A stretch of DNA of 45,552 nt from the IMG/VR virus record IMGVR_UViG_3300005530_000039, positions 1 to 45,552 of that record. One strand, written 5' to 3'. The stretch is from a virus. This document shows positions 2,776 through 15,441 of the stretch, one piece after another (positions within the stretch are counted from its first letter, which is position 1; each line of letters starts with the position of its first letter). Below the pieces are notes generated by a model. The model was not told the DNA's origin. It ran no database searches and saw nothing but the letters and a program-made list of their open reading frames with translations. A program made the position numbers and the translations under genes.

Positions 2776-2813
2776 ATAGTCATATATACACCTAAATGAT
2801 CGGAGATAGTCAA

Positions 2814-3113
2814 ATGTCAATCCTTTTGCATCTAAAAGGAGTAGTGATCTCTAATATGAAGGATGAGATTCCTGGATTAAAGCAAGCAACTCTTGATCTG
2901 ATCAATAATATTGATTCAGATTTGGATGGAATTGAACAAACATATGATGAGATTGAGTGGTCAGATGAAACTCAAAAGGCATTGGCTGCTTTTGATAAAG
3001 TGCTAGTAGGTGAGGAAGAGTCACCTTATATTAATAAGGATAATGAAGAGGATATTGTTGAAACCGATAGGTTGGAGGGATTAGGAGATGTTGACGACGA
3101 AAACAAGAACTAA
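2814..3113 (+). CDS. acidic hypothetical protein (99 aa)
   Basis: Start chosen at 2814 because GGAG lies 8 nt upstream; an in-frame ATG at 2796 would add six residues and has no such site. The protein is strongly acidic, especially in its last 50 residues (runs of D and E), and mostly helical. No family recognised. Acidic early phage proteins can mimic DNA or bind host enzymes, but nothing here proves that. It overlaps the next gene by 26 nt. Confidence 0.6.
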   Translation: MSILLHLKGVVISNMKDEIPGLKQATLDLINNIDSDLDGIEQTYDEIEWSDETQKALAAFDKVLVGEEESPYINKDNEEDIVETDRLEGLGDVDDENKN

Positions 3114-3471
3114 ATGGGATAATGTAACTATTAAGTTACGTTGTCCGGAAGGAACAGCATTTATTGAGATCGCAGAAGAGTATCCTGGCAAGATCAATCG
3201 TATATCTATTACGATTGGGAAGGCTGGATCTTCTGTAAATGCTCAAGCATATGCGATTGCTGAGTTAACTACTGAGCTATTTAATCTAGGCAAGAGTATC
3301 AATGATGTGATTGCAAAGCTAACTGGAATAACTTCTGATAGAGTTGTTCGTGCAGAAAGTGGAGTTGATGTCAGAAGCATTCCTGAAGCATTGATTCTAG
3401 CATTGCATCAATATAGATCGACAGTTCCAACAACTAGAGTCTCTAGATTCAGAATCAAACGGAATAGATGA
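3088..3471 (+). CDS. TSCPD-domain protein
   Basis: A 127-residue protein resembling the TSCPD domain found at the C-terminus of class II ribonucleotide reductases and as stand-alone phage proteins. The pattern is a beta hairpin (INRISITIGKAGSSV, residues about 35-50), a long helix (AYAIAELTTELFNLG) and the terminal LTGITSDR segment matching the family's 'L.GI' ending. The cysteines typical of zinc-binding members are not retained except one near residue 19. A role tied to nucleotide metabolism is suggested by the family only. It overlaps its neighbours by a few codons, as in an operon. Confidence 0.6.
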   Translation: MLTTKTRTKWDNVTIKLRCPEGTAFIEIAEEYPGKINRISITIGKAGSSVNAQAYAIAELTTELFNLGKSINDVIAKLTGITSDRVVRAESGVDVRSIPEALILALHQYRSTVPTTRVSRFRIKRNR

Positions 3472-3707: not shown

Positions 3708-3900
3708 GAAGATATCTCAATATGATTTAGTTTGTATGTGGTTAGCTATTACTTCTACACAAATTCCTCCTATAGTATCAGCTAATGCAGTTAAGGTATT
3801 AAAGGTAATAACTACAGAGATATTAGATGGTTATTTAGAAATAGAAAGACGAGATAAAGAGAATGGAGTGGTTAAGAAGGATCATCTTAAATTAATGTAA
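3616..3900 (+). CDS. helical hypothetical protein (94 aa)
   Basis: Mostly alpha-helical protein with an N-terminal charged helix (RKRLLEGMIAEAEVMLR), a hydrophobic centre and a lysine-rich tail. No family recognised. Its first third overlaps the preceding gene in another frame. A later start is possible but no better ribosome-binding site is visible. Confidence 0.55.
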   Translation: MDESQSDLIQERKRLLEGMIAEAEVMLRTNKKISQYDLVCMWLAITSTQIPPIVSANAVKVLKVITTEILDGYLEIERRDKENGVVKKDHLKLM

Positions 3901-3901
3901 G

Positions 3902-4225
3902 ATGCCATTAACAGTTGAACACCAACTAGAGATAGATGCTTTGATAGAATCTATTAGTCTAAGCCAAATTATTGGACACCATTCGGCAGCAATAATTAAA
4001 GTTTCACAGAAAGATGCAGGAAGATTAACTTTAGATGAGGAACAATCATTAGTTCCTTATGTAACTAGAAGATTTAGAAATAAATTATATGAGCTATTAT
4101 CTGAGTCAAAGCAACGAGAAGATAATCAAGCCATTCACGATCATTCTATCAAAATCGAAAGGGGAAGTGAGACTGGACACATACTCCCCGGCGAGGTTGA
4201 TATACCTTCTAAGAGCGGGTGCTAA
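3902..4225 (+). CDS. helical hypothetical protein (107 aa)
   Basis: Begins 2 nt after the previous stop. The first 75 residues are predicted helical (HQLEIDALIESISLSQII; TRRFRNKLYELLSES). The remaining 35 overlap the next gene in another frame and are polar. No family recognised. Part of the run of small early genes with unknown roles. Confidence 0.5.
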   Translation: MPLTVEHQLEIDALIESISLSQIIGHHSAAIIKVSQKDAGRLTLDEEQSLVPYVTRRFRNKLYELLSESKQREDNQAIHDHSIKIERGSETGHILPGEVDIPSKSGC

Positions 4226-4505
4226 TACTAAATATCCCGAGTTGAAGAATTGGATATTCAAGATTAAGCATGATCATGTATTGGCAATTCCAAGAGATCC
4301 AACTATTGAGAATGAAGTAGAACATCCTGATTATCTAGATTATGTCGATCTAGTTAATCATCTTATCCAGACTAAGCCAGATAATATTGTCTATACAAAT
4401 GCATTCTTAACTGAAGCTGAAATGGCTAAGTTAATTAATACAGCAACTAAGTTAGGATACTCGACAATAGAAAAAACGGATAAAGGAGTTAAGATTAAAA
4501 AATGA
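4089..4505 (+). CDS. hypothetical protein (138 aa; start uncertain)
   Basis: The region from about residue 30 on is a coherent alpha/beta protein. The ATG at 4089 would overlap the previous gene by 137 nt. An in-frame GTG at 4167, just after AAGGGG, would make a 112-residue product beginning VRLDTYSPARL, which fits the genome's compact style better. The C-terminus (LGYSTIEKTDKGVKIKK) looks like a beta-hairpin end. No family recognised. Confidence 0.55.
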   Translation: MSYYLSQSNEKIIKPFTIILSKSKGEVRLDTYSPARLIYLLRAGANTKYPELKNWIFKIKHDHVLAIPRDPTIENEVEHPDYLDYVDLVNHLIQTKPDNIVYTNAFLTEAEMAKLINTATKLGYSTIEKTDKGVKIKK

Positions 4506-4801
4506 AAACAGTATTTATAGTTAATCATTCTGGTCAGCATTCATACGAAGCTGCCAAAGAAAAGGGTGAATTGGTGTATCTAACTCGTGGGTTCATTGAC
4601 ATTGCAAATGATTTGAAATCTATCGTTCATTCCATAGAATCACTAATTGCAACGTCAGAGCCAGAGGATTACTTACTGTTATCCGGGAACGGTTTACTCT
4701 GTGTTATGGCATTTGATCTATGGAAAAGAAAGCATGGCAAGGTGACCGTGCTACATACGATCAATTCCGGGCGGAGCTATACCGAACATGAGTTCAACTA
4801 G
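4502..4801 (+). CDS. conserved phage protein, alpha/beta (99 aa)
   Basis: Alpha/beta protein opening with a beta strand and turn (KTVFIVNHSGQ) followed by LVYLTRG, SEPEDYLLLSGNG and HGKVTVLHT. This arrangement matches a small uncharacterised protein seen in many tailed phages, recognised from memory and not by search. The function is unknown in that group. It overlaps the previous stop (AAAATGA) and runs 14 nt into the next gene. Confidence 0.6.
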   Translation: MKTVFIVNHSGQHSYEAAKEKGELVYLTRGFIDIANDLKSIVHSIESLIATSEPEDYLLLSGNGLLCVMAFDLWKRKHGKVTVLHTINSGRSYTEHEFN

Positions 4802-5070: not shown

Positions 5071-5214
5071 ATGGATTTGAATGGTATTAAGTGGCGGAAA
5101 GTTAATCGTGAATTGATTATTGAGGCACCATATAAAGGCGAATGGTTGCTTAGTAAAGAGCTTATTGATGATGATATTAATAGCAGAAGTTGGCCTCACT
5201 TATATGAAATATGA
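5071..5214 (+). CDS. small hypothetical protein (47 aa; start uncertain)
   Basis: Starting from the ATG at 5071, just past the previous stop, the product is a 47-residue alpha/beta peptide with WRKVNRELIIEAPYKGEWLL and a tryptophan-containing C-terminus. The frame is open to 4990 but the extra residues are a basic low-complexity stretch overlapping the previous gene. It overlaps the nuclease gene start by ATGA. Confidence 0.45.
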   Translation: MDLNGIKWRKVNRELIIEAPYKGEWLLSKELIDDDINSRSWPHLYEI

Positions 5215-6125
5215 AATTCTTTGATCATCCAAATAAGTGGTTCATGGCTAAGTTCGATCGTTATGAGCCTATTATTCAAGATCATACGGCGATGAATATT
5301 GCCAAAACCTGTAAGAGAAAGTATTTTTACAGGATCGTATTAGGTTTTACCCCCCGCCAAGAAAAGTACCAAACTGTATTTGACTTTGGTACTGCCTACC
5401 ACAAGTTAAAAGAAGTTCTGCGTCGTACTGGTAATATTGGTGAGGCCATTCAGGCTGCTTCCCGATTACCAATTCTATCTCCAAGTCCCGTTAAAAAGTT
5501 TCATTATCTAACTAAGGCTGCCTTAATGAAGGCGGCTCATGTTGCTAATGAACAATGGGAAAAAGATCAAGAACAAAAGAAGATTAAATTAATTCCAGAC
5601 ATGATTGAACAGCCACTTAATGTTCAACTGCCTGATGGATCTTTTGTTGGTGGTAGATTAGATGCTGGTGTAGAATGGATGGGACAAATCTGGGATGAGG
5701 ATGATAAAACATCTTCTAAAGATGAAGAAGGATTTGCTTCCCAGAAAGCTGTAGATGATCAGACAACTCGATACATTTACATGCTTACCAAGCTTCATGG
5801 TGATGATATTGGTGGTATTATCTTCAATGTTCTTCATCATAACTATACTGAGAAGAATGGCTTAAAGATGTGGCTAAATAAAGTCACATTCCAACGTACA
5901 GATAGACAACTTAAAGAATGGGAAAGAGAGCAGATTCATTTCAATAAAGAGTTAGCTCTTGCTCGTGAGTCAGATATTTGGGTTAAAGAAGAACATAATT
6001 GTGCTTGGTGTCCATTCATGTGGGTATGCAAGCAATCAAATGAAGCTGCACAAATGGCTAAGTTAGAATCTGATTTCAAATTACAGCCCTGGGATTTTGA
6101 GAAGGTTGAGCAGGGGGGAGAATGA
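5211..6125 (+). CDS. Cas4/RecB-like PD-(D/E)XK nuclease
   Basis: Nuclease of the PD-(D/E)XK superfamily, Cas4/RecB-like branch. Visible motifs are the conserved His in GTAYHKL (about 64), the GGRLDAG Asp (151), the DDKTS segment (164-168) supplying the Asp-x-Lys pair, and a downstream Gln/Tyr helix (DDQTTRYIYML). Four cysteines (C34, C264, C267, C273; the last three in CAWCPFMWVC) have the spacing of the 4Fe-4S cluster in Cas4 and AddB-type exonucleases. With the Sak4-like ATPase and putative ssDNA-binding protein downstream it probably resects double-strand ends for phage recombination. No other cas gene or array is present, so a CRISPR role is unlikely. Confidence 0.85.
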   Translation: MKFFDHPNKWFMAKFDRYEPIIQDHTAMNIAKTCKRKYFYRIVLGFTPRQEKYQTVFDFGTAYHKLKEVLRRTGNIGEAIQAASRLPILSPSPVKKFHYLTKAALMKAAHVANEQWEKDQEQKKIKLIPDMIEQPLNVQLPDGSFVGGRLDAGVEWMGQIWDEDDKTSSKDEEGFASQKAVDDQTTRYIYMLTKLHGDDIGGIIFNVLHHNYTEKNGLKMWLNKVTFQRTDRQLKEWEREQIHFNKELALARESDIWVKEEHNCAWCPFMWVCKQSNEAAQMAKLESDFKLQPWDFEKVEQGGE

Positions 6126-6504: not shown

Positions 6505-6670
6505 AAAACCAAAATGTCCTTGTGGTTCGCTTAGGCCACAGGAAAGTGATTATCTAACTAAAGCCAGATACTTAGAAAAATTAAGAGAATGGAAGATGAT
6601 TCATCATATTCATCTTTATAGTATCCCACGAGAGAAGTTAATGGAGTTAATAAATGACCCGTCTAAATGA
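6488..6670 (+). CDS. small protein with a CPCG motif (60 aa)
   Basis: Starts inside the preceding gene after AGGTGGAG. It holds one CPCG knuckle near residue 10 and then two helices with several histidines (MIHHIHLY). Only two cysteines are present, so a full zinc ribbon is absent unless the histidines take part. Overlaps the next gene by 17 nt. Confidence 0.55.
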   Translation: MIHLSEKPKCPCGSLRPQESDYLTKARYLEKLREWKMIHHIHLYSIPREKLMELINDPSK

Positions 6671-7526
6671 AGTTCCAACTGGAGAATCTATTACAGGATG
6701 TTTTTATGGTGGTGCAGGTAAAGGTAAGACATGGTGTATGGGTACAGCAGGAGATAGAACTTTATATTGTGATGTAGAGAATCGTTTAGCTACAATACAA
6801 TCTAAAGCATTTCAATCTAAGTTCAAGTTCAATCCACTTCTAATTCAAGTATCAGAAGAACCAATTCCAGATGGTGGAGCTAAAGCATTAGCGGAATTAA
6901 CTAGACTTATTAAGCAGAATATTAAAGAGCATTCAACAGAATTTGATATCATAGAAGTTGATGGTGCGTCAGCATTGCGTAGATTTGCTAGAAATATGGG
7001 ACTAGAGTTAAATGGTAAAACGGGTAAATCTAAATCGTTAGTTGACGCTCAAGTAGAAGGTGGTAAGATAGCAGCAATTGTAGATGGATTTCCGTATGCA
7101 GATATTACAAGACAGGATTTTGGTATTGAAATGGATCTTATTGAGAGATTCATTTACAGTATGAAAGAGTATTGTGCAGATGCAAAGAAGCATTTCTTTC
7201 TCACAGCACACGAAAGAGTTGAGTATCCACCGCCATCAAAGGAGAATCCTAGCCCAGAACCAAAATCAATTAGACCGGGATTCACCGGACAAACATTTCC
7301 AGATACAATTCCTGGCATGTTTGATTTAGTGTGGAGATTTGAATCAATTGGTGCAGCAGAACAGACACAGTTTTATGCTAGGACAATCGGTGATGAATCT
7401 AACTTTGGTGTAACAAGTGTAGGAACTAAGATAGTATCAAAGACTTGTTATCCAGGTGTATTCAAAGCCAAAGAGTATAATCCTAATATACTTGATATCA
7501 TTAAACGAATTAAGGAGAGTAGATAA
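6654..7526 (+). CDS. Sak4-like RecA-fold ATPase, single-strand annealing
   Basis: P-loop ATPase of the Sak4/RecA-like phage type. Walker A is GGAGKGKT (residues 19-26) and Walker B ends in FDIIEVDG (97-104). A later strand, HFFLTAHE (about 181-188), holds the polar sensor position. The length of 290 residues is typical for Sak4-like proteins, which bind ssDNA and promote annealing. A Cas4-like nuclease lies upstream and a putative ssDNA-binding protein downstream, the usual recombination module. An alternative is a generic phage NTP-binding protein. Confidence 0.8.
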   Translation: MTRLNEVPTGESITGCFYGGAGKGKTWCMGTAGDRTLYCDVENRLATIQSKAFQSKFKFNPLLIQVSEEPIPDGGAKALAELTRLIKQNIKEHSTEFDIIEVDGASALRRFARNMGLELNGKTGKSKSLVDAQVEGGKIAAIVDGFPYADITRQDFGIEMDLIERFIYSMKEYCADAKKHFFLTAHERVEYPPPSKENPSPEPKSIRPGFTGQTFPDTIPGMFDLVWRFESIGAAEQTQFYARTIGDESNFGVTSVGTKIVSKTCYPGVFKAKEYNPNILDIIKRIKESR

Positions 7527-7742
7527 ATGCCTAAAGGCAAATATAATCGAAAGCCGAAGAAGATTGATGTCCCAAAAGTTGAACCACCTAATACAAATAT
7601 TGTTGAAGGATATAGTCCAGGTGGTGTAAAACTAGTTGAATCAACATATCGTCCACGAATGATGGTATTATGTATCTCAAAGCGATATTATTCTGATGGT
7701 TCTGTGGACGAAAGTGTAGAAACATATAACACTCATAGATAA
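7527..7742 (+). CDS. hypothetical protein (71 aa)
   Basis: Directly abuts the Sak4-like gene. It has a basic, proline-rich N-terminus (PKGKYNRKPKKIDVPKVEPP) and a short beta-rich C-terminus (MMVLCISKRYYSDGSV). No family recognised. The stop shares TAATG with the Tad2-like gene that follows. Confidence 0.55.
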   Translation: MPKGKYNRKPKKIDVPKVEPPNTNIVEGYSPGGVKLVESTYRPRMMVLCISKRYYSDGSVDESVETYNTHR

Positions 7743-7954
7743 TGAACTTCTCAGATGCATTAAAGGAAATCAAATCGGGTCAAGATTTGAGACGTAAAGG
7801 ATGGAATGGTAAGGGTATGAATGTTCATTATAGAGCCAGTAAAATACAAGGCGAATTACCATATCTTGAAATGACCACAGTTCAAGGAACATTAGTTCCT
7901 TGGTTAGCTTCACAAACTGATATTCTTGCTGAAGATTGGGAGTTTGCAACATGA
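7742..7954 (+). CDS. tad2: DUF2829 / Tad2-like anti-Thoeris protein
   Basis: A 70-residue protein with the DUF2829 signature from end to end. It has an opening helix (FSDALKEIKSG), WNGKGM (21-26), PYLEM (40-44), VPWLASQTD (52-60) and LAEDWE (62-67). DUF2829 is the family of Tad2, which forms oligomers that sequester the cyclic ADP-ribose-type signal of Thoeris defence and thereby stop ThsA activation (established for tested members, such as that of phage SPO1). Activity here is inferred from the family. It is coupled by TAATG to the gene before and ATGA to the Acb2/Tad1-like gene after. Confidence 0.88.
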   Translation: MNFSDALKEIKSGQDLRRKGWNGKGMNVHYRASKIQGELPYLEMTTVQGTLVPWLASQTDILAEDWEFAT

Positions 7955-8163
7955 TAACACCAGAAATTGATAAACTATTTACATATCATGATCCGACAGA
8001 AGCAAGTATCATATATTTAAAAAATGTAAGAGAATCAGCTAAGTCTTTAGCAAATGTAATTAATGAAAACATTCCAGAATGTGCAGATAAGTCAGCAGCA
8101 ATTCGTAAGCTTCGTGAATGTGTAATGACGGCTAATACGGCTATTCTTCTTAATCAATCTTAA
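7951..8163 (+). CDS. Acb2/Tad1 hairpin-domain protein, likely cyclic-nucleotide sponge
   Basis: A 70-residue helical-hairpin protein matching the phage family now named for the Acb2/Tad1 hairpin domain. It has FTYHDPT (10-16), a first helix (IYLKNVRESAKSLANVI), the CADKSAAIRKLRE segment (44-56) and a closing helix MTANTAILL. Characterised members bind cyclic di- and trinucleotides (Acb2, anti-CBASS) or ADP-ribose signals (Tad1, anti-Thoeris). The short length fits Acb2-type better than full Tad1, but the ligand cannot be read from sequence. Start 7951 is chosen for GGGAG 9 nt upstream and the ATGA overlap. The neighbouring tad2 suggests a two-gene anti-defence unit. Confidence 0.75.
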   Translation: MITPEIDKLFTYHDPTEASIIYLKNVRESAKSLANVINENIPECADKSAAIRKLRECVMTANTAILLNQS

Positions 8164-8174
8164 CTAATCCTCAA

Positions 8175-8642
8175 ATGCCAAAGTTTGATTTCAATCCAGC
8201 CGATGCAGTTTCTGGTATTCCTGTATACCCGAAGGATTCATATGAAGTTGAATTGGGTGAGCCAGTTTCTTTCTATCGTGCAGGTAAAGATGGAAAGGCA
8301 GATAATTATGGTGTGATGTTCAAGTCCAAGATTCGTGATGGTAAGTTTGCTGGCAAGCCGACGATTATTAATTGTTACATGCACAATGAAGATTCACTCG
8401 GATTTACGAAGTCAGTTCAGATGGCTGCACTTGGATATACTCCTCGTAAGTCTGGTGAGGATGAAAGATTTAATGCAGATCATGGTACAGATGGTTGGGG
8501 AATTAATACTGACGATCGTACTTGTGATCAAGGTTGGCATAATATGAAGGGTCAGACATTAGTTTGGGATGCTGATACTAAGATTGATAAGAATGGTGAG
8601 CAGCAACAAGTTACTCTTGGTTATCGCCCTTTAGGTTCATAA
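8175..8642 (+). CDS. putative ssDNA-binding protein of the recombination module
   Basis: A 155-residue beta-rich protein. It opens with FDFNPADA and VYPKDSYEVELGEPVSF, then FKSKIRDGKFAGKPTIINCYM, a pattern like the DUF669-type phage ssDNA-binding proteins that accompany Sak4 ATPases. It ends in a strand pair (QVTLGYRPLGS) instead of the usual acidic tail of SSBs. Assignment rests on the pattern and on position behind nuclease and Sak4-like genes. If correct, it coats ssDNA for the annealing ATPase. Confidence 0.5.
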   Translation: MPKFDFNPADAVSGIPVYPKDSYEVELGEPVSFYRAGKDGKADNYGVMFKSKIRDGKFAGKPTIINCYMHNEDSLGFTKSVQMAALGYTPRKSGEDERFNADHGTDGWGINTDDRTCDQGWHNMKGQTLVWDADTKIDKNGEQQQVTLGYRPLGS

Positions 8643-8916: not shown

Positions 8917-9312
8917 ATGTTAGATAATCTTCTCTCCCTGTATCCTAATTATACAACTTGGTATGGTCCTACTTTTCATAAAAGTGAAGGTAGATATTAT
9001 ATCTATTTGTATAATAAGGATACAAAGAAGAGAACAACTATAGCTTACGCTAAAGCTATAATCCAATGTAAGCTTAATAGACTATTAAATAAGAATGAAG
9101 AAGTAGATCATATAGATAATAATAAAGTAAATGATACAGTAGAAAATCTACAAATTATAACTAAGTTAAATAATACAAGAAAAACAAGTTTAGACAAATA
9201 CGTAGAAGTTACATGTATGTATTGCAGTAGAAATTTTAATAAATTAAAAAGTAGAGTTAGTAATAAAGTATATTGCAGTAACTCTTGTAGATTTGCTGCT
9301 AAGCGCGTGTAA
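8917..9312 (+). CDS. HNH homing endonuclease inserted in a tRNA gene
   Basis: HNH nuclease of 131 residues. The core is EEVDHIDNNKVNDTVENLQ (about 61-79) with the catalytic DH pair at 64-65 and Asn at 68 and 78. A C-terminal zinc-finger-like module has C100, C103, C120 and C124. It starts 2 nt after the 5' half of a broken tRNA, and its stop lies inside the tRNA-Ile gene (9303-9375). Free-standing phage HNH genes often spread by homing. Here the insertion appears to have removed the anticodon arm of the host tRNA gene. Very AT-rich codon use agrees with recent acquisition or drift. Confidence 0.85.
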   Translation: MLDNLLSLYPNYTTWYGPTFHKSEGRYYIYLYNKDTKKRTTIAYAKAIIQCKLNRLLNKNEEVDHIDNNKVNDTVENLQIITKLNNTRKTSLDKYVEVTCMYCSRNFNKLKSRVSNKVYCSNSCRFAAKRV

Positions 9313-9375
9313 CTCAGCGGTTAGAGTATTCGCCTTATAAGCGAAGAGTCGAAGGTTCAACTCCTTCCACGCGCA
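9303..9375 (+). tRNA. tRNA-Ile (anticodon UAU)
   Basis: Complete cloverleaf. The acceptor pairs GCGCGTG with CACGCGC, the D-arm is ACTC/GAGT, the anticodon stem TTCGC/GCGAA holds loop CTTATAA (anticodon TAT), and the T-arm is GAAGG-TTCAACT-CCTTC, with discriminator A. It reads AUA, a codon frequent in this phage. The HNH stop codon lies in its acceptor stem, so the two genes share 10 nt. CCA is not encoded. Confidence 0.9.
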
Positions 9376-9943: not shown

Positions 9944-10025
9944 GCCGCCTTGGCGAAATTGGTAGACGCGAGGGACTTAAAATCCCTTTCTTAACAGAGT
10001 ATCGGTTCGAGTCCGATAGGTGGCA
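9944..10025 (+). tRNA. tRNA-Leu (anticodon UAA)
   Basis: Acceptor GCCGCCT pairs with AGGTGGC (one G-U), discriminator A. The anticodon stem AGGGA/TCCCT holds loop CTTAAAA (anticodon TAA). A long variable arm and the T-arm (TCGG-TTCGAGT-CCGA core) are typical of leucine tRNAs. It reads UUA/UUG, heavily used here. The next gene starts one base after its end, and CCA is not encoded. Confidence 0.92.
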
Positions 10026-10673: not shown

Positions 10674-10897
10674 GCCTAAATAATTATGATTATCATCTAA
10701 TGTTGCGGGCAGCAAATGTCAAAGCAACTATTCATGAATTAAATATGATTCCCAAATCAGATATGGACCCAGAAGAGAAACTGATATATAAAGTAATGAC
10801 AAATGAATTAGAGAAATTAGCCAATAAATTATGGCAAGATGGGATGGGTAGTACAAAGGGTGTTAATCGTTCACAACCTTTATTTGAAACTAAATGA
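10670..10897 (+). CDS. helical hypothetical protein (75 aa)
   Basis: Mostly alpha-helical (YHLMLRAANVKATIHELNM; EEKLIYKVMTNELEKLANKL). Linked to both neighbours by four-base ATGA overlaps, which supports a real operonic gene. No family recognised. Confidence 0.5.
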   Translation: MSLNNYDYHLMLRAANVKATIHELNMIPKSDMDPEEKLIYKVMTNELEKLANKLWQDGMGSTKGVNRSQPLFETK

Positions 10898-11481
10898 TCC
10901 ATCTAACAAGTAATAAGGTAGCAATAACTCCAATTTTAGATCCTGATAAGACACCAGGTGGATTATATATTCCTGATATTGCTAAAGAACGAGCAGACCA
11001 AGGAATAGTAAAGTATATCGGACCTAGAGTTAAGGATATTAAGATTGGAGATTATGTTTTATTTGGTGGATATGATGGTACGACAGTTCGCTTGGAAGGT
11101 GAAGGAACATTTATTCTTATCCGTGAACCATTTATTAAATGTATCTTAGATAGACCAGATACAGATATTAATGGATTGTATTTTAGGAGTAAGATTGATA
11201 AGGATGAGCAGGAAGAGATTCGTAGAGAAATATTAGATGCAATTAGAGTAGCTATTGAAACTAATAATGTTAGTGATGATATAATAGACTCAATATTAGA
11301 AATATATGCCAAACATGATCCATATTTCACAGCAACACATGAAATGGCTATAAATCTAGTAGCAGAAGCATGGAAGGATCATCCAGTTAGAATTACAACT
11401 AGAGCTAATGATCCTAAGAAAGGAGATAAGATTCATGATAGAGCAATGGTAGATCACATTATAGAAGAGGAAGATGAATAA
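10894..11481 (+). CDS. GroES-like co-chaperonin with C-terminal extension
   Basis: Residues 1-88 match the GroES (Cpn10) fold. They include ITPILDPDKTPGGLYIPD, where GGLYIP is the conserved turn, then GIVKYIGPRVKDIKIGDYVLFGGYDGTTVRL and the closing strand FILIREPFIKCIL. The mobile loop is shortened to DPDKTP. A further roughly 107 residues are helical and acidic and not part of GroES. Phage co-chaperonins, such as T4 gp31, partner host GroEL to fold capsid protein. The extension, set in an early operon, is unusual and may alter GroEL partnering or add another binding task. Confidence 0.8.
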   Translation: MIHLTSNKVAITPILDPDKTPGGLYIPDIAKERADQGIVKYIGPRVKDIKIGDYVLFGGYDGTTVRLEGEGTFILIREPFIKCILDRPDTDINGLYFRSKIDKDEQEEIRREILDAIRVAIETNNVSDDIIDSILEIYAKHDPYFTATHEMAINLVAEAWKDHPVRITTRANDPKKGDKIHDRAMVDHIIEEEDE

Positions 11482-11696
11482 TGACACAGTTCGTTGAGAT
11501 TCTACTTATAAATGGCAGAAAGATTGGAGTAAATATAGATAATATTTTAGAGTTTGCTCCACATCCACAAGAAATTGGAGTATGTAATATTATAGTTAAA
11601 GTACCATCAGGTGGTGTATATCCAGTCAAGATGCCATATAGTGATTTGAGAAAGTTATTTATTCCTCCTGGAAGTGATTTAAAGTTGATTAATTAA
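11481..11696 (+). CDS. hypothetical protein (71 aa)
   Basis: Small beta-rich protein (QFVEILLINGRKIGVNIDNIL, then GVCNIIVKVPSGGVYPVKM) with glycines at turns. Overlaps the GroES-like stop (TAATG) and is itself overlapped by the polymerase gene start (TAATGA). No family recognised. Confidence 0.55.
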   Translation: MTQFVEILLINGRKIGVNIDNILEFAPHPQEIGVCNIIVKVPSGGVYPVKMPYSDLRKLFIPPGSDLKLIN

Positions 11697-13384
11697 TGAC
11701 AGCATTAATATCTAATAGAAAGGTCCCGCCATCGGGACCAGAAGATGCTGAAATCCTAATAATAGGTGAAGCACCTGGATATGAAGAAGACAAAGAGCTT
11801 ATTCCATTTATTGGTGATGCTGGAAAGGAGCTTAATAGGGGATTGGCGGTTGCTGGATTTGACAGGAATAACATTCGTGTTACTAATGTGTGTAACTACC
11901 GTCCTAATAACAATAAGTTTGAGTTATTAGAGGATACTTGGCAACTTCAAGAAGGAATAAACGATGTCAAAGAATTCATCGAAACGCATAAATCTACACT
12001 TAAATTTGTCGTACTCTGCGGAGGGAAACCGCTCGAATACATCGGAAGAAAACACGGAATCGACAAGTGGCGATCTTCGGTCATCGAAGAATCTGGAGTT
12101 AAGTTCTTTTGTTCATATCATCCTTCCGCAATCATTCGAGATAGATCTTTATACAGTACGTTTACATTCGATTTTCGAAAACTTTACAGGTACGTTAAAG
12201 AGGGTTATAGAAAGCCCGAATATAGATTTAACATTAACCCAACTGGAACAGATCGTGAAGAAGCTCTCAGAGAGCTAGAAAGCCATGGACGATTATATAT
12301 TGACATTGAGAGTGTTAAAGGAACTACTCATATATTGTGTTGTGGCTTTGCTAGTTCTCCTACCGAAGCAACCGTATTTAGTAATAGTAATTTTGGTTTT
12401 CTCGATTTTGAATTCCACTCTAGCTTATCTAGAATTCTTGAGAATCCTAAAATTGAGAAGTTTTATCATAACGGATTTGGTTACGATATCGAAGTATTAA
12501 GATTGAATGGTATAAATGTACAGAATTATGTATATGATACAATGATTGGTGCTCATGTACTAGAACCTGAATTACCTTATAGTCTAGCTTATCTTACAAC
12601 TTTATACACAGATCAAGCTTATTATAAGGATAAAGGTAAGTCAGCAATTCCAGATGATGAAGAAAAAGGATGGAGTGAGAAAGTAGATAGACAAACATTG
12701 TACGAATATAATGCAACTGACTGTGTAGTCACAGCTAAGGTTGCTATTGAACAAATAAAAGAAATAAATGAGCGTAAACTCTGGAGAACATATAATTATA
12801 AAGCTTCTCTTATTCCCCTCGGACAAGAATTAAGTCGAAATGGATTAGAAGTATTTCAGGAACAAAGAGAGTTATTAAGAGAAGCAGTTAAACTAAAATG
12901 GAAATATTATCAGGAGATTCTTAATGGCATAGCAGGATTTAAAGTCAATGCCAAATCTCCAAAACATATGACTAAGTTACTCCTAGAGCAATTTGGTTTA
13001 CCTGAAAGACGAAATAGGAACGCTGGCATAACCTTCGATGAAGATGCTATCGTATCCTATTTTTCTTTTATACAGGCTAAGATAGATGAATCTAAAAGGG
13101 AAGCAACGATTGAACAATGGACATTGAGATTAGCTGCCTGTAAGTGTATTTTATTAATTAGGGGATTTAGACAGCTAATTTCTAACTATGTCAAAGTTAA
13201 GATATCATCTGATAATCGACTTAGATCTGTTTATAATTTATCGGCTGCAACTGAAACAGGTAGAGGATCTTCGCATAAATGGGTTGATGGAACTGGTCTT
13301 AATGCGCAGACATTTCCAAGAGAAAGACTTGAACTAGATGACTTTGAGGTTGAACTCTTAAAGAAAAAAGGATTTTTGTTATGA
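11696..13384 (+). CDS. uracil-DNA glycosylase / 3'-5' exonuclease / N-terminal part of DNA polymerase A
   Basis: First half of a split family A polymerase. Residues 1-170 are a UDG-superfamily domain: GEAPG (24-28), PFIGDAG (37-43), VTNVCNYRP (62-70) and YHPSA (141-145), the SPO1-polymerase type arrangement. Residues about 195-350 are a DnaQ-like exonuclease: Exo I D203/E205 in YIDIE, Exo II N259 and D264, and Exo III Y338 to D342. The rest is thumb/palm up to LSAATETGRGSSHKW and LNAQTFPRE, the family A segment just before motif A, plus an unrelated 19-residue tail. The remaining palm and fingers are encoded separately at 14647. The halves probably assemble as one enzyme. Confidence 0.88.
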   Translation: MTALISNRKVPPSGPEDAEILIIGEAPGYEEDKELIPFIGDAGKELNRGLAVAGFDRNNIRVTNVCNYRPNNNKFELLEDTWQLQEGINDVKEFIETHKSTLKFVVLCGGKPLEYIGRKHGIDKWRSSVIEESGVKFFCSYHPSAIIRDRSLYSTFTFDFRKLYRYVKEGYRKPEYRFNINPTGTDREEALRELESHGRLYIDIESVKGTTHILCCGFASSPTEATVFSNSNFGFLDFEFHSSLSRILENPKIEKFYHNGFGYDIEVLRLNGINVQNYVYDTMIGAHVLEPELPYSLAYLTTLYTDQAYYKDKGKSAIPDDEEKGWSEKVDRQTLYEYNATDCVVTAKVAIEQIKEINERKLWRTYNYKASLIPLGQELSRNGLEVFQEQRELLREAVKLKWKYYQEILNGIAGFKVNAKSPKHMTKLLLEQFGLPERRNRNAGITFDEDAIVSYFSFIQAKIDESKREATIEQWTLRLAACKCILLIRGFRQLISNYVKVKISSDNRLRSVYNLSAATETGRGSSHKWVDGTGLNAQTFPRERLELDDFEVELLKKKGFLL

Positions 13385-14429: not shown

Positions 14430-14650
14430 TCAAATCACTCCTTGAATCATATAGCTATACTCCATTCGAAATTAAAGATAAGATTAACGAGATTATTAAT
14501 ATAGTTAATCAGTTAGATAGTCAGAGTCCTGCCAAAAGAGTAATTGAATATGTTGTATTGATAGATTTACTCGGTGGTGCAGATAATATAAATAGAGCAT
14601 TACTAGCTAACTTACACATGAATAGTTATTTGGCTCGCGAAATAAAGTGA
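14426..14650 (+). CDS. helical hypothetical protein (74 aa)
   Basis: Alpha-helical protein (FEIKDKINEIINIVNQL; AKRVIEYVVLIDLLGG). No family recognised. Its stop overlaps the GTG start of the second polymerase half (GTGA), so translation of that half probably depends on it. Confidence 0.5.
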   Translation: MIKSLLESYSYTPFEIKDKINEIINIVNQLDSQSPAKRVIEYVVLIDLLGGADNINRALLANLHMNSYLAREIK

Positions 14651-15441
14651 AAATCCCAATCCGTTCAATGATCCACGCACCAAAGGATCATCTTCTATTA
14701 TCTTGTGATTTATCTCAAGCAGAAGCTTGGGTAGTAGCATATGCAGCTGATGAACCTAGAATGAAAGCTGCATTAAAGACAGGTAAGATTCACGAGACAA
14801 CAGCACAATTCTGTTTAGAATTACCTTCAATGGTAATGTCAGAGGAACAGAGATACGTCGGGAAGAAATGTAATCATGCCTTTAATTATAGAATGGGGCC
14901 TGAGCGATGCTGTGAGATCATCAATAAAGAAGGACTCATTACAGTCTCAAATAAACAAACAAAGAAGTTCCATAGTAAATACCTCGAACTATATCGTATC
15001 CAAGACTGGTGGAGAGAAATCGAAGAGAAGCTCAAATATGAGCGATCACTTCAAAACTATTATGGATTCAGAAGAAATTTCCATCAGGCGATTTCTCCTG
15101 AATTATTTAAAGAGGGGACCGCATTCATACCACAATCTACGATTGCAGACCACATGTATGGTAATATTCAACCTAACTTTCCAAGAAGTGGAGGACTACT
15201 TGAAGTCCATAAGCAAATCACTGGCCCTAGCAAGGGCGAATTCAAATTAGTTCATTCAGCACATGATAGCTGTATCATAGAATTTCCGAAGAGACACGAT
15301 GTTAAAGAATTATATTGTCGAGTTAAGAATCTTTTGGAAAGACCTATGATGATTAATGGAGAAGAATTCACAGTTCCTATGGATGGTAAGTATGGAGAGG
15401 TTTGGGAGGATGGAATGGAGAAAATAAAGAATGCTGCTTAA
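14647..15441 (+). CDS. C-terminal half of split DNA polymerase A (palm/fingers)
   Basis: Carries the catalytic core of a family A polymerase. Motif A is SCDLSQAE (D21, steric-gate-position E26). The O-helix (motif B) is RYVGKKCNHAFNY, with R69, K73 and Y81 aligning to Pol I R754, K758 and Y766. Motif C is SAHDSC (H206, D207). Two departures are visible by alignment with Pol I: the F762 position is His77, and the residue after the motif C Asp is Ser, not Glu. The gene begins with GTG, overlapping the previous stop. The first half of the enzyme ends at 13384, so the gap holds five unrelated genes. Neither half could polymerise alone. Confidence 0.88.
   Translation: MKIPIRSMIHAPKDHLLLSCDLSQAEAWVVAYAADEPRMKAALKTGKIHETTAQFCLELPSMVMSEEQRYVGKKCNHAFNYRMGPERCCEIINKEGLITVSNKQTKKFHSKYLELYRIQDWWREIEEKLKYERSLQNYYGFRRNFHQAISPELFKEGTAFIPQSTIADHMYGNIQPNFPRSGGLLEVHKQITGPSKGEFKLVHSAHDSCIIEFPKRHDVKELYCRVKNLLERPMMINGEEFTVPMDGKYGEVWEDGMEKIKNAA

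Follow-up and report, generated by a model that had tools for sequence, protein, structure and literature searches.

Overlapping genes for a Tad2-like and an Acb2-like protein in the recombination region of a virus genome: a putative and recurrent pair of nucleotide sponges

Gene organization of the locus

The window, by which we mean the whole stretch of DNA that was analysed, is a virus record of 45,552 bases. Its replication and recombination half is encoded on the + strand, and its structural half on the - strand. Downstream of an exonuclease gene (5211-6125; phrog_1218) and of the gene for an AAA_24/Sak4-like recombination protein (6654-7526, + strand; phrog_124), the latter a neighbour that lies outside the pair discussed here, three short genes follow one another head-to-tail at 7527-7742, 7742-7954 and 7951-8163. 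A first-pass annotation had described the second and third as overlapping neighbours (7742-8163) inside the recombination module; these coordinates hold, and the description of the setting is a fair one with the exonuclease and Sak4-like genes just upstream.

The second gene (+ strand) begins with ATG at 7742, its stop codon ends at 7954, and it encodes a Tad2-like protein of 70 amino acids belonging to PF11195 (DUF2829). The third, also on the + strand, begins with ATG at 7951 and encodes an Acb2-like protein, likewise of 70 residues, with the Acb2/Tad1 hairpin (PF24729). The two are joined by a 4-nt start/stop overlap, ATGA, at 7951-7954 (+ strand), an arrangement that suggests translational coupling. 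In the program-made list of open reading frames the hairpin gene starts at TTG 7936; ATG 7951 is the better start: GGGAG (7938-7942), a likely ribosome-binding site, is located 8 nt upstream of it, and the resulting product has exactly the 70 residues previously proposed. The G+C contents of the two genes (0.37 and 0.31) present no sharp contrast with that of the flanking DNA (0.35).

The first of the three genes (7527-7742, + strand) encodes a 71-residue protein, P0002, to which no function is assigned, and shares one base with the Tad2-like gene through a TAATG overlap. It had been put forward as a third member of the unit, a suggestion that our searches leave unsupported: no family was matched in Pfam, PHROG or NCBIfam, no meaningful match was found in the PDB, and a pattern search of 2.9 million viral contigs returned no relatives, the best phage match having E=0.2. 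A match of 19 residues to designed TPR proteins was judged to be a chance motif. Since there is no evidence besides the gene overlap, we have left this ORF outside the unit.

Searches through the flanking Sak4-like gene and through the region 8175-8642 revealed no syntenic relatives. The sole find with the window terminase was a 10-kb contig (IMGVR_UViG_3300005336_000145) carrying an identical terminase, which is probably the same phage, or a very near one, assembled twice. Elsewhere in the window, a DNA polymerase I-like gene is split into two pieces, 11696-13384 (phrog_17 positions 476-989) and 14647-15441 (phrog_17 positions 995-1235), with a gap of about 1.26 kb between them that holds several small ORFs, one of these ribbon-helix-helix-like; no Rfam intron was found for the split gene at gathering score. 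Two tRNA genes are present, tRNA-Ile (anticodon TAT, 9303-9375), which overlaps the end of an HNH-like ORF (8917-9312), and tRNA-Leu (anticodon TAA, 9944-10025). The early small-gene cluster includes a TSCPD-domain protein (3088-3471) and a Pam3 gp32-like protein (4502-4801).

The Tad2-like protein

The product of 7742-7954 matches PF11195 over residues 1-68 with 81.8 bits (cut-off 25; E=5.3e-23), and it also matches phrog_1048/872. Its sequence matches in the PDB are to deposited Tad2s (8v3e, 9eib, 8sme and others), against which a profile of 42 sequences reaches E-values down to 2e-26. An AF2 model, for which an alignment of relatives served as input, has a pLDDT of 93.6 and retrieves 24 solved Tad2 chains with Foldseek at E 1e-5 or better (best about 1e-7; TMq 0.85-0.92), including forms bound to gcADPR, cADPR and His-ADPR. 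The initial assignment to DUF2829 (Tad2) is confirmed by sequence, profile and fold.

Tad2 from Bacillus phage SPO1 (8sme/8smf/8smg) and ModTad2, which comes from a Myroides odoratus prophage (8v3e, 9eib), belong to the same Pfam family and have the same fold (TMq 0.86-0.92), with about 28-40% identity to the window protein over the aligned core. The motifs Arg-x-Gly-Trp-Asn-Gly and Trp-x-x-Ser-x-x-Asp are common to all three proteins. Among the 42 relatives, residues R18, G20, W21, G23, W54, S57, D60, L62, D65 and W66 are invariant, and each of them is kept in the window protein.

The window Tad2 differs from SPO1 Tad2 and ModTad2 in being some 15 residues shorter between β2 and β5. The spacing between these strands is 14 residues here, as against 29 in SPO1 Tad2 and ModTad2, 40 in SptTad2 and 46 in HgmTad2, which places the window protein among the shortest seen; the insertion that it lacks occurs in some Tad2s only and does not define the family. 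The cyclic-dinucleotide site of Tad2 sits in this insertion (PMC12043709), and even the Tad2 of SPO1 shows no binding of 3'3'-cGAMP (PMC11722364). For the window protein we therefore predict a restriction to signals of the ADP-ribose type. Binding of His-ADPR is also documented within the family (PMC13299392; 9eib), and since both gcADPR/cADPR binders and His-ADPR binders are found among the best fold matches, the ligand may be of either kind.

The family has in addition been connected with CRISPR. AcrIIA7 originated from a functional metagenomic screen for Cas9 inhibitors (Uribe et al., as cited in PMC6739867), and the HgmTad2/AcrIIA7 entries 8kbi, 8kbk and 9kzr belong to the family of the window protein. 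If the Tad2-like protein were such an anti-CRISPR, the gene pair would be a general counter-defence cluster and not a signal-sponge unit. Against this, related entries were solved with 1',2'-cADPR and cGG bound (8kbj, 8kbk), by which signal binding is directly documented, and the long insertion of AcrIIA7 is missing from the window protein. Anti-CRISPR activity like that of AcrIIA7 may exist among Tad2 proteins but is the less likely alternative, and we regard it as very improbable that it accounts for this locus.

One of the contigs surveyed (L032) carries two diverged Tad2-like genes, at 2804-3088 and 3719-3961, with about 630 bases between them.

The Acb2-like hairpin protein and the proposed sponge pair

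The product of 7951-8163 matches PF24729 with 40.4 bits (cut-off 27; E=3.3e-10), and it also matches phrog_1454. Since Vs.4 (Acb2) of T4 itself scores 71.5 bits against PF24729, the link between the window hairpin and Acb2 through this curated family is sound. Its similarity to solved structures is more distant than that of the Tad2-like protein: the best PDB matches to a hairpin profile of 45 sequences are T4 Vs.4 and Acb2 homolog 43 (9ptq), at E 0.03-0.04. The AF2 model, again made with an alignment of relatives as input, has a pLDDT of 94.3 and consists of helices at residues 3-9, 17-40 and 45-67. It thereby displays the topology described for Acb2, namely one short N-terminal helix and two long antiparallel helices (PMC12043709). 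A ranking of PDB folds places 9ptq first, followed by T4 Vs.4 with cGAMP (7uq2); the best Foldseek E-value against the PDB is only 0.26, weak values being expected of a small helical hairpin. In the viral structure library BFVD, the top ten matches are all Acb2/Tad1-hairpin proteins, gp5 of phage MalagasyRose among them.

Sequence, profile and fold agree in this case as well, and the hairpin assignment made at first pass is upheld. Of its joint label "Acb2/Tad1" the Acb2-like part stands; Tad1 (7uaw, 8kbb) has PF24729 in common with the window protein through its C-terminal helical hairpin, with weak matches, but its N-terminal β-sheet domain is absent from the window protein, the model of which is all-helical. 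T4 Acb2 (Vs.4; 7uq2) and the Acb2 of Pseudomonas phages (8h2j, 8h2x) share both PF24729 and the three-helix layout; the window protein differs from them in its shorter helices (70 versus 88 residues in total length), in not keeping F82 and W76, and in an identity of 13-20% in structural alignments. The best fold match is the 3'cADPR-bound structure of Acb2 homolog 43 (9ptq; TM 0.73, rmsd 1.1 over 55 columns, 25% identity), which is also first or second in the sequence-profile ranking.

In T4 Acb2, the substitution Y8A disrupts the binding of cyclic dinucleotides, while F82 makes a stacking contact with the bound ligand (PMC12657218). Profile and multiple alignment place window residues Y12, R27, L66 and T60 at T4 positions Y8, K23, F82 and W76, respectively. 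R27 is invariant among the 45 relatives, Y12 is nearly so, and at the position of L66 the close relatives usually have Ala. T4 K23 presumably corresponds to K26 of PaMx33 Acb2, a ligand-binding lysine. Of the two published contacts, one is thus retained and the other replaced: the Tyr is present, together with a basic residue, but F82 gives way to Leu, at a position where Phe is not known to be universal in Acb2s.

The reading we favour, and hold to be somewhat more probable than all others together, is that of two complementary sponges, Tad2 for the ADP-ribose-type signal of Thoeris and the Acb2-like protein for the cyclic oligonucleotides of CBASS. The family and fold of each protein and the overlap of the genes are supported directly, as is the recurrence of the pair described below. 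For the action of the pair we infer timing, assembly, ligands and the defences defeated, as follows. The two proteins would be produced together during infection and would self-assemble, Tad2 into a tetramer and the Acb2-like protein into a hexamer, if they behave like their solved relatives. Each sponge would then bind and sequester a nucleotide signal, keeping the host effector inactive. Tad2, without the insertion that holds the cyclic-dinucleotide site, most likely takes a Thoeris signal of the ADP-ribose type (3'cADPR, 2'cADPR or His-ADPR). The cyclic di- or trinucleotides of CBASS are the most likely targets of the Acb2-like protein, which has a Tyr and a basic residue at T4 positions Y8 and K23.

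This division of labour is plausible but not secure. The two targets may overlap, since homolog 43, to which the hairpin protein is closest among solved Acb2s, binds 3'cADPR. The main rival to the Thoeris/CBASS split is that both sponges act on signals made by TIR proteins, that is, on the ADP-ribose-type signals of Thoeris, one taking for instance 3'cADPR and the other His-ADPR or another isomer, in which case the pair would widen coverage inside a single defence class. The annotation of 9ptq as 3'cADPR-bound would fit such an arrangement, as would the binding of gcADPR (8smf, 8smg) or His-ADPR (9eib; PMC13299392) by members of the Tad2 family. The characterised Acb2s, such as that of T4, nevertheless take cyclic oligonucleotides (PMC12657218, PMC12043709), and the Tyr of T4 Acb2 (Y8) is retained in the window protein and absent from homolog 43, which has Thr at the position of Y12. 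From this difference to a 3'cADPR binder, the hairpin protein seems to lean softly to the T4 type, and we consider it unlikely that both sponges serve the one class.

Recurrence and significance of the gene pair

Relatives of the window Tad2 were surveyed on 80 IMG/VR contigs and in 3 phage records. Ten of these 83 records also carry a PF24729 protein, and the other 73 are without a hairpin gene. Two of the ten contigs (L020 and L021) represent one lineage and were collapsed, leaving nine lineages with both genes. In five of the nine (MalagasyRose, L020/L021, L072, L073 and L089) the genes adjoin directly and share a strand; in L016 and L057 they are about 0.5-1 kb apart, and in L012 and L074 they are far apart. 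Uniform placement would yield 0.14-0.42 adjacent cases, and the probability of five or more is 1e-5 to 5e-8 depending on the rule applied, values to be read in the knowledge that the adjacency criterion was set after the first cases had been seen, that the Tad2 of the window served as the seed of the sample, and that many of the surveyed contigs are fragments. L072 and L089 may not be independent lineages, because a related neighbour gene, for a protein of 112 residues, is common to both.

In Mycobacterium phage MalagasyRose the hairpin gene (gp5) follows the Tad2-like gene (gp4) directly, with an overlap of one base; the pair is situated by the terminase genes, and not in a recombination module as in the window. 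Gp5 (922-1509) is a larger protein of 195 residues in which the hairpin occupies a middle position (residues 50-107), with unexplained extensions on either side.

A second sample was taken from the hairpin side, starting from the family found in L020, L072 and L089, which we refer to as INFNPS-type. Among its 79 loci, Tad2 is present within the flanks in 12, eight of these within 150 bases, and none of the 12 has a separation above about 730 bp. This search added the lineages L186-L188, L222 and L232. No Tad2 occurs anywhere on those 46 of the other INFNPS-type contigs that were searched whole, nor on any of 85 contigs that carry the closest relatives of the window hairpin. Counting both samples, direct adjacency, in either gene order, is found in about eight lineages other than that of the window, and the hairpin subfamilies differ.

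The co-occurrence anticipated at first pass is thus borne out as a pairing well beyond chance, but a sporadic one. Most occurrences of either family are without the other, but when both are on a common contig they tend strongly to adjoin. Since this holds for either order and for differing hairpin subfamilies, it fits the repeated assembly of a counter-defence cluster, and not one fixed operon inherited by descent. The proposed "unit" is accordingly retained in the sense of a recurrent neighbourhood, and not in that of a two-component system, because the pairing is facultative.

It might be argued that the two genes adjoin by accident, as members of a gathering of small accessory genes in the replication module, without any functional partnership. 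The many records in which one gene is present alone (73 of the 83 Tad2 records, and all of the 85 and 46 contigs mentioned above) agree with this explanation. It is at odds with the five adjacent cases among nine lineages, where less than one was expected, and with the close spacing in all 12 INFNPS-type loci that contain both genes; we judge it to be quite unlikely.

Several other candidates were rejected. A joined Tad2+Acb2 query seemed to match Pseudomonas phage phiAH14a over 79% of its length, but the gene after Tad2 there lies in a head-gene cluster and was not accepted as a hairpin gene. Gp5 of Curiosium, which adjoins the best Tad2 match, is not a hairpin protein. The idea of complementarity, whereby paired Tad2s would tend to lack the dinucleotide insertion, found no statistical support: the insertion is missing in 6 of 9 paired versus 30 of 73 other Tad2s (P=0.17), and so its absence is not significantly commoner in the pairs.

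GroES-like genes were noticed near hairpin or Tad2 genes in the window (10894-11481), L003 (6228-6551), L020 (2864-3229), L073 (7096-7479) and L089 (4417-4704). In L003 such a gene directly adjoins the hairpin gene, and in L020 the Tad2-hairpin pair. Pfam Cpn10 matches those of the window, L003 and L020, and weakly that of L089; the L073 gene is GroES-like by eye only.

We found no published Tad2-Acb2 gene pair in the open-text literature, and a prior description elsewhere is possible. Both proteins are new members of families already described, with predicted ligands, and the main interest of the finding is that their pairing recurs. The surprise is limited, because both families, and phages with several sponges, are already known. 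A more far-reaching proposal, for which we see about as little likelihood as for an accidental neighbourhood, is that the Tad2 and hairpin sponges constitute a recurrent two-gene module that arose by convergent assembly and is kept linked for a functional reason. That reason, going beyond mere co-location, might be the matched dosage of complementary sponges, the formation of a joint complex, or a defence against guards. Under the last of these, Panoptes-like systems, for example, would punish a phage that carries one sponge only.

The short window Tad2 would provide a clean test, supplied by nature, of the role of the insertion in the second, cyclic-dinucleotide activity of Tad2. Adjacency may likewise serve as a handle for finding more sponges among the uncharacterised small genes that lie beside Tad2 or hairpin genes. 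If the pair is functional, some 420 bases would shield the phage from two classes of nucleotide signal. The recurrence of the pair in several unrelated lineages is a testable sign of selection for stacked sponges.
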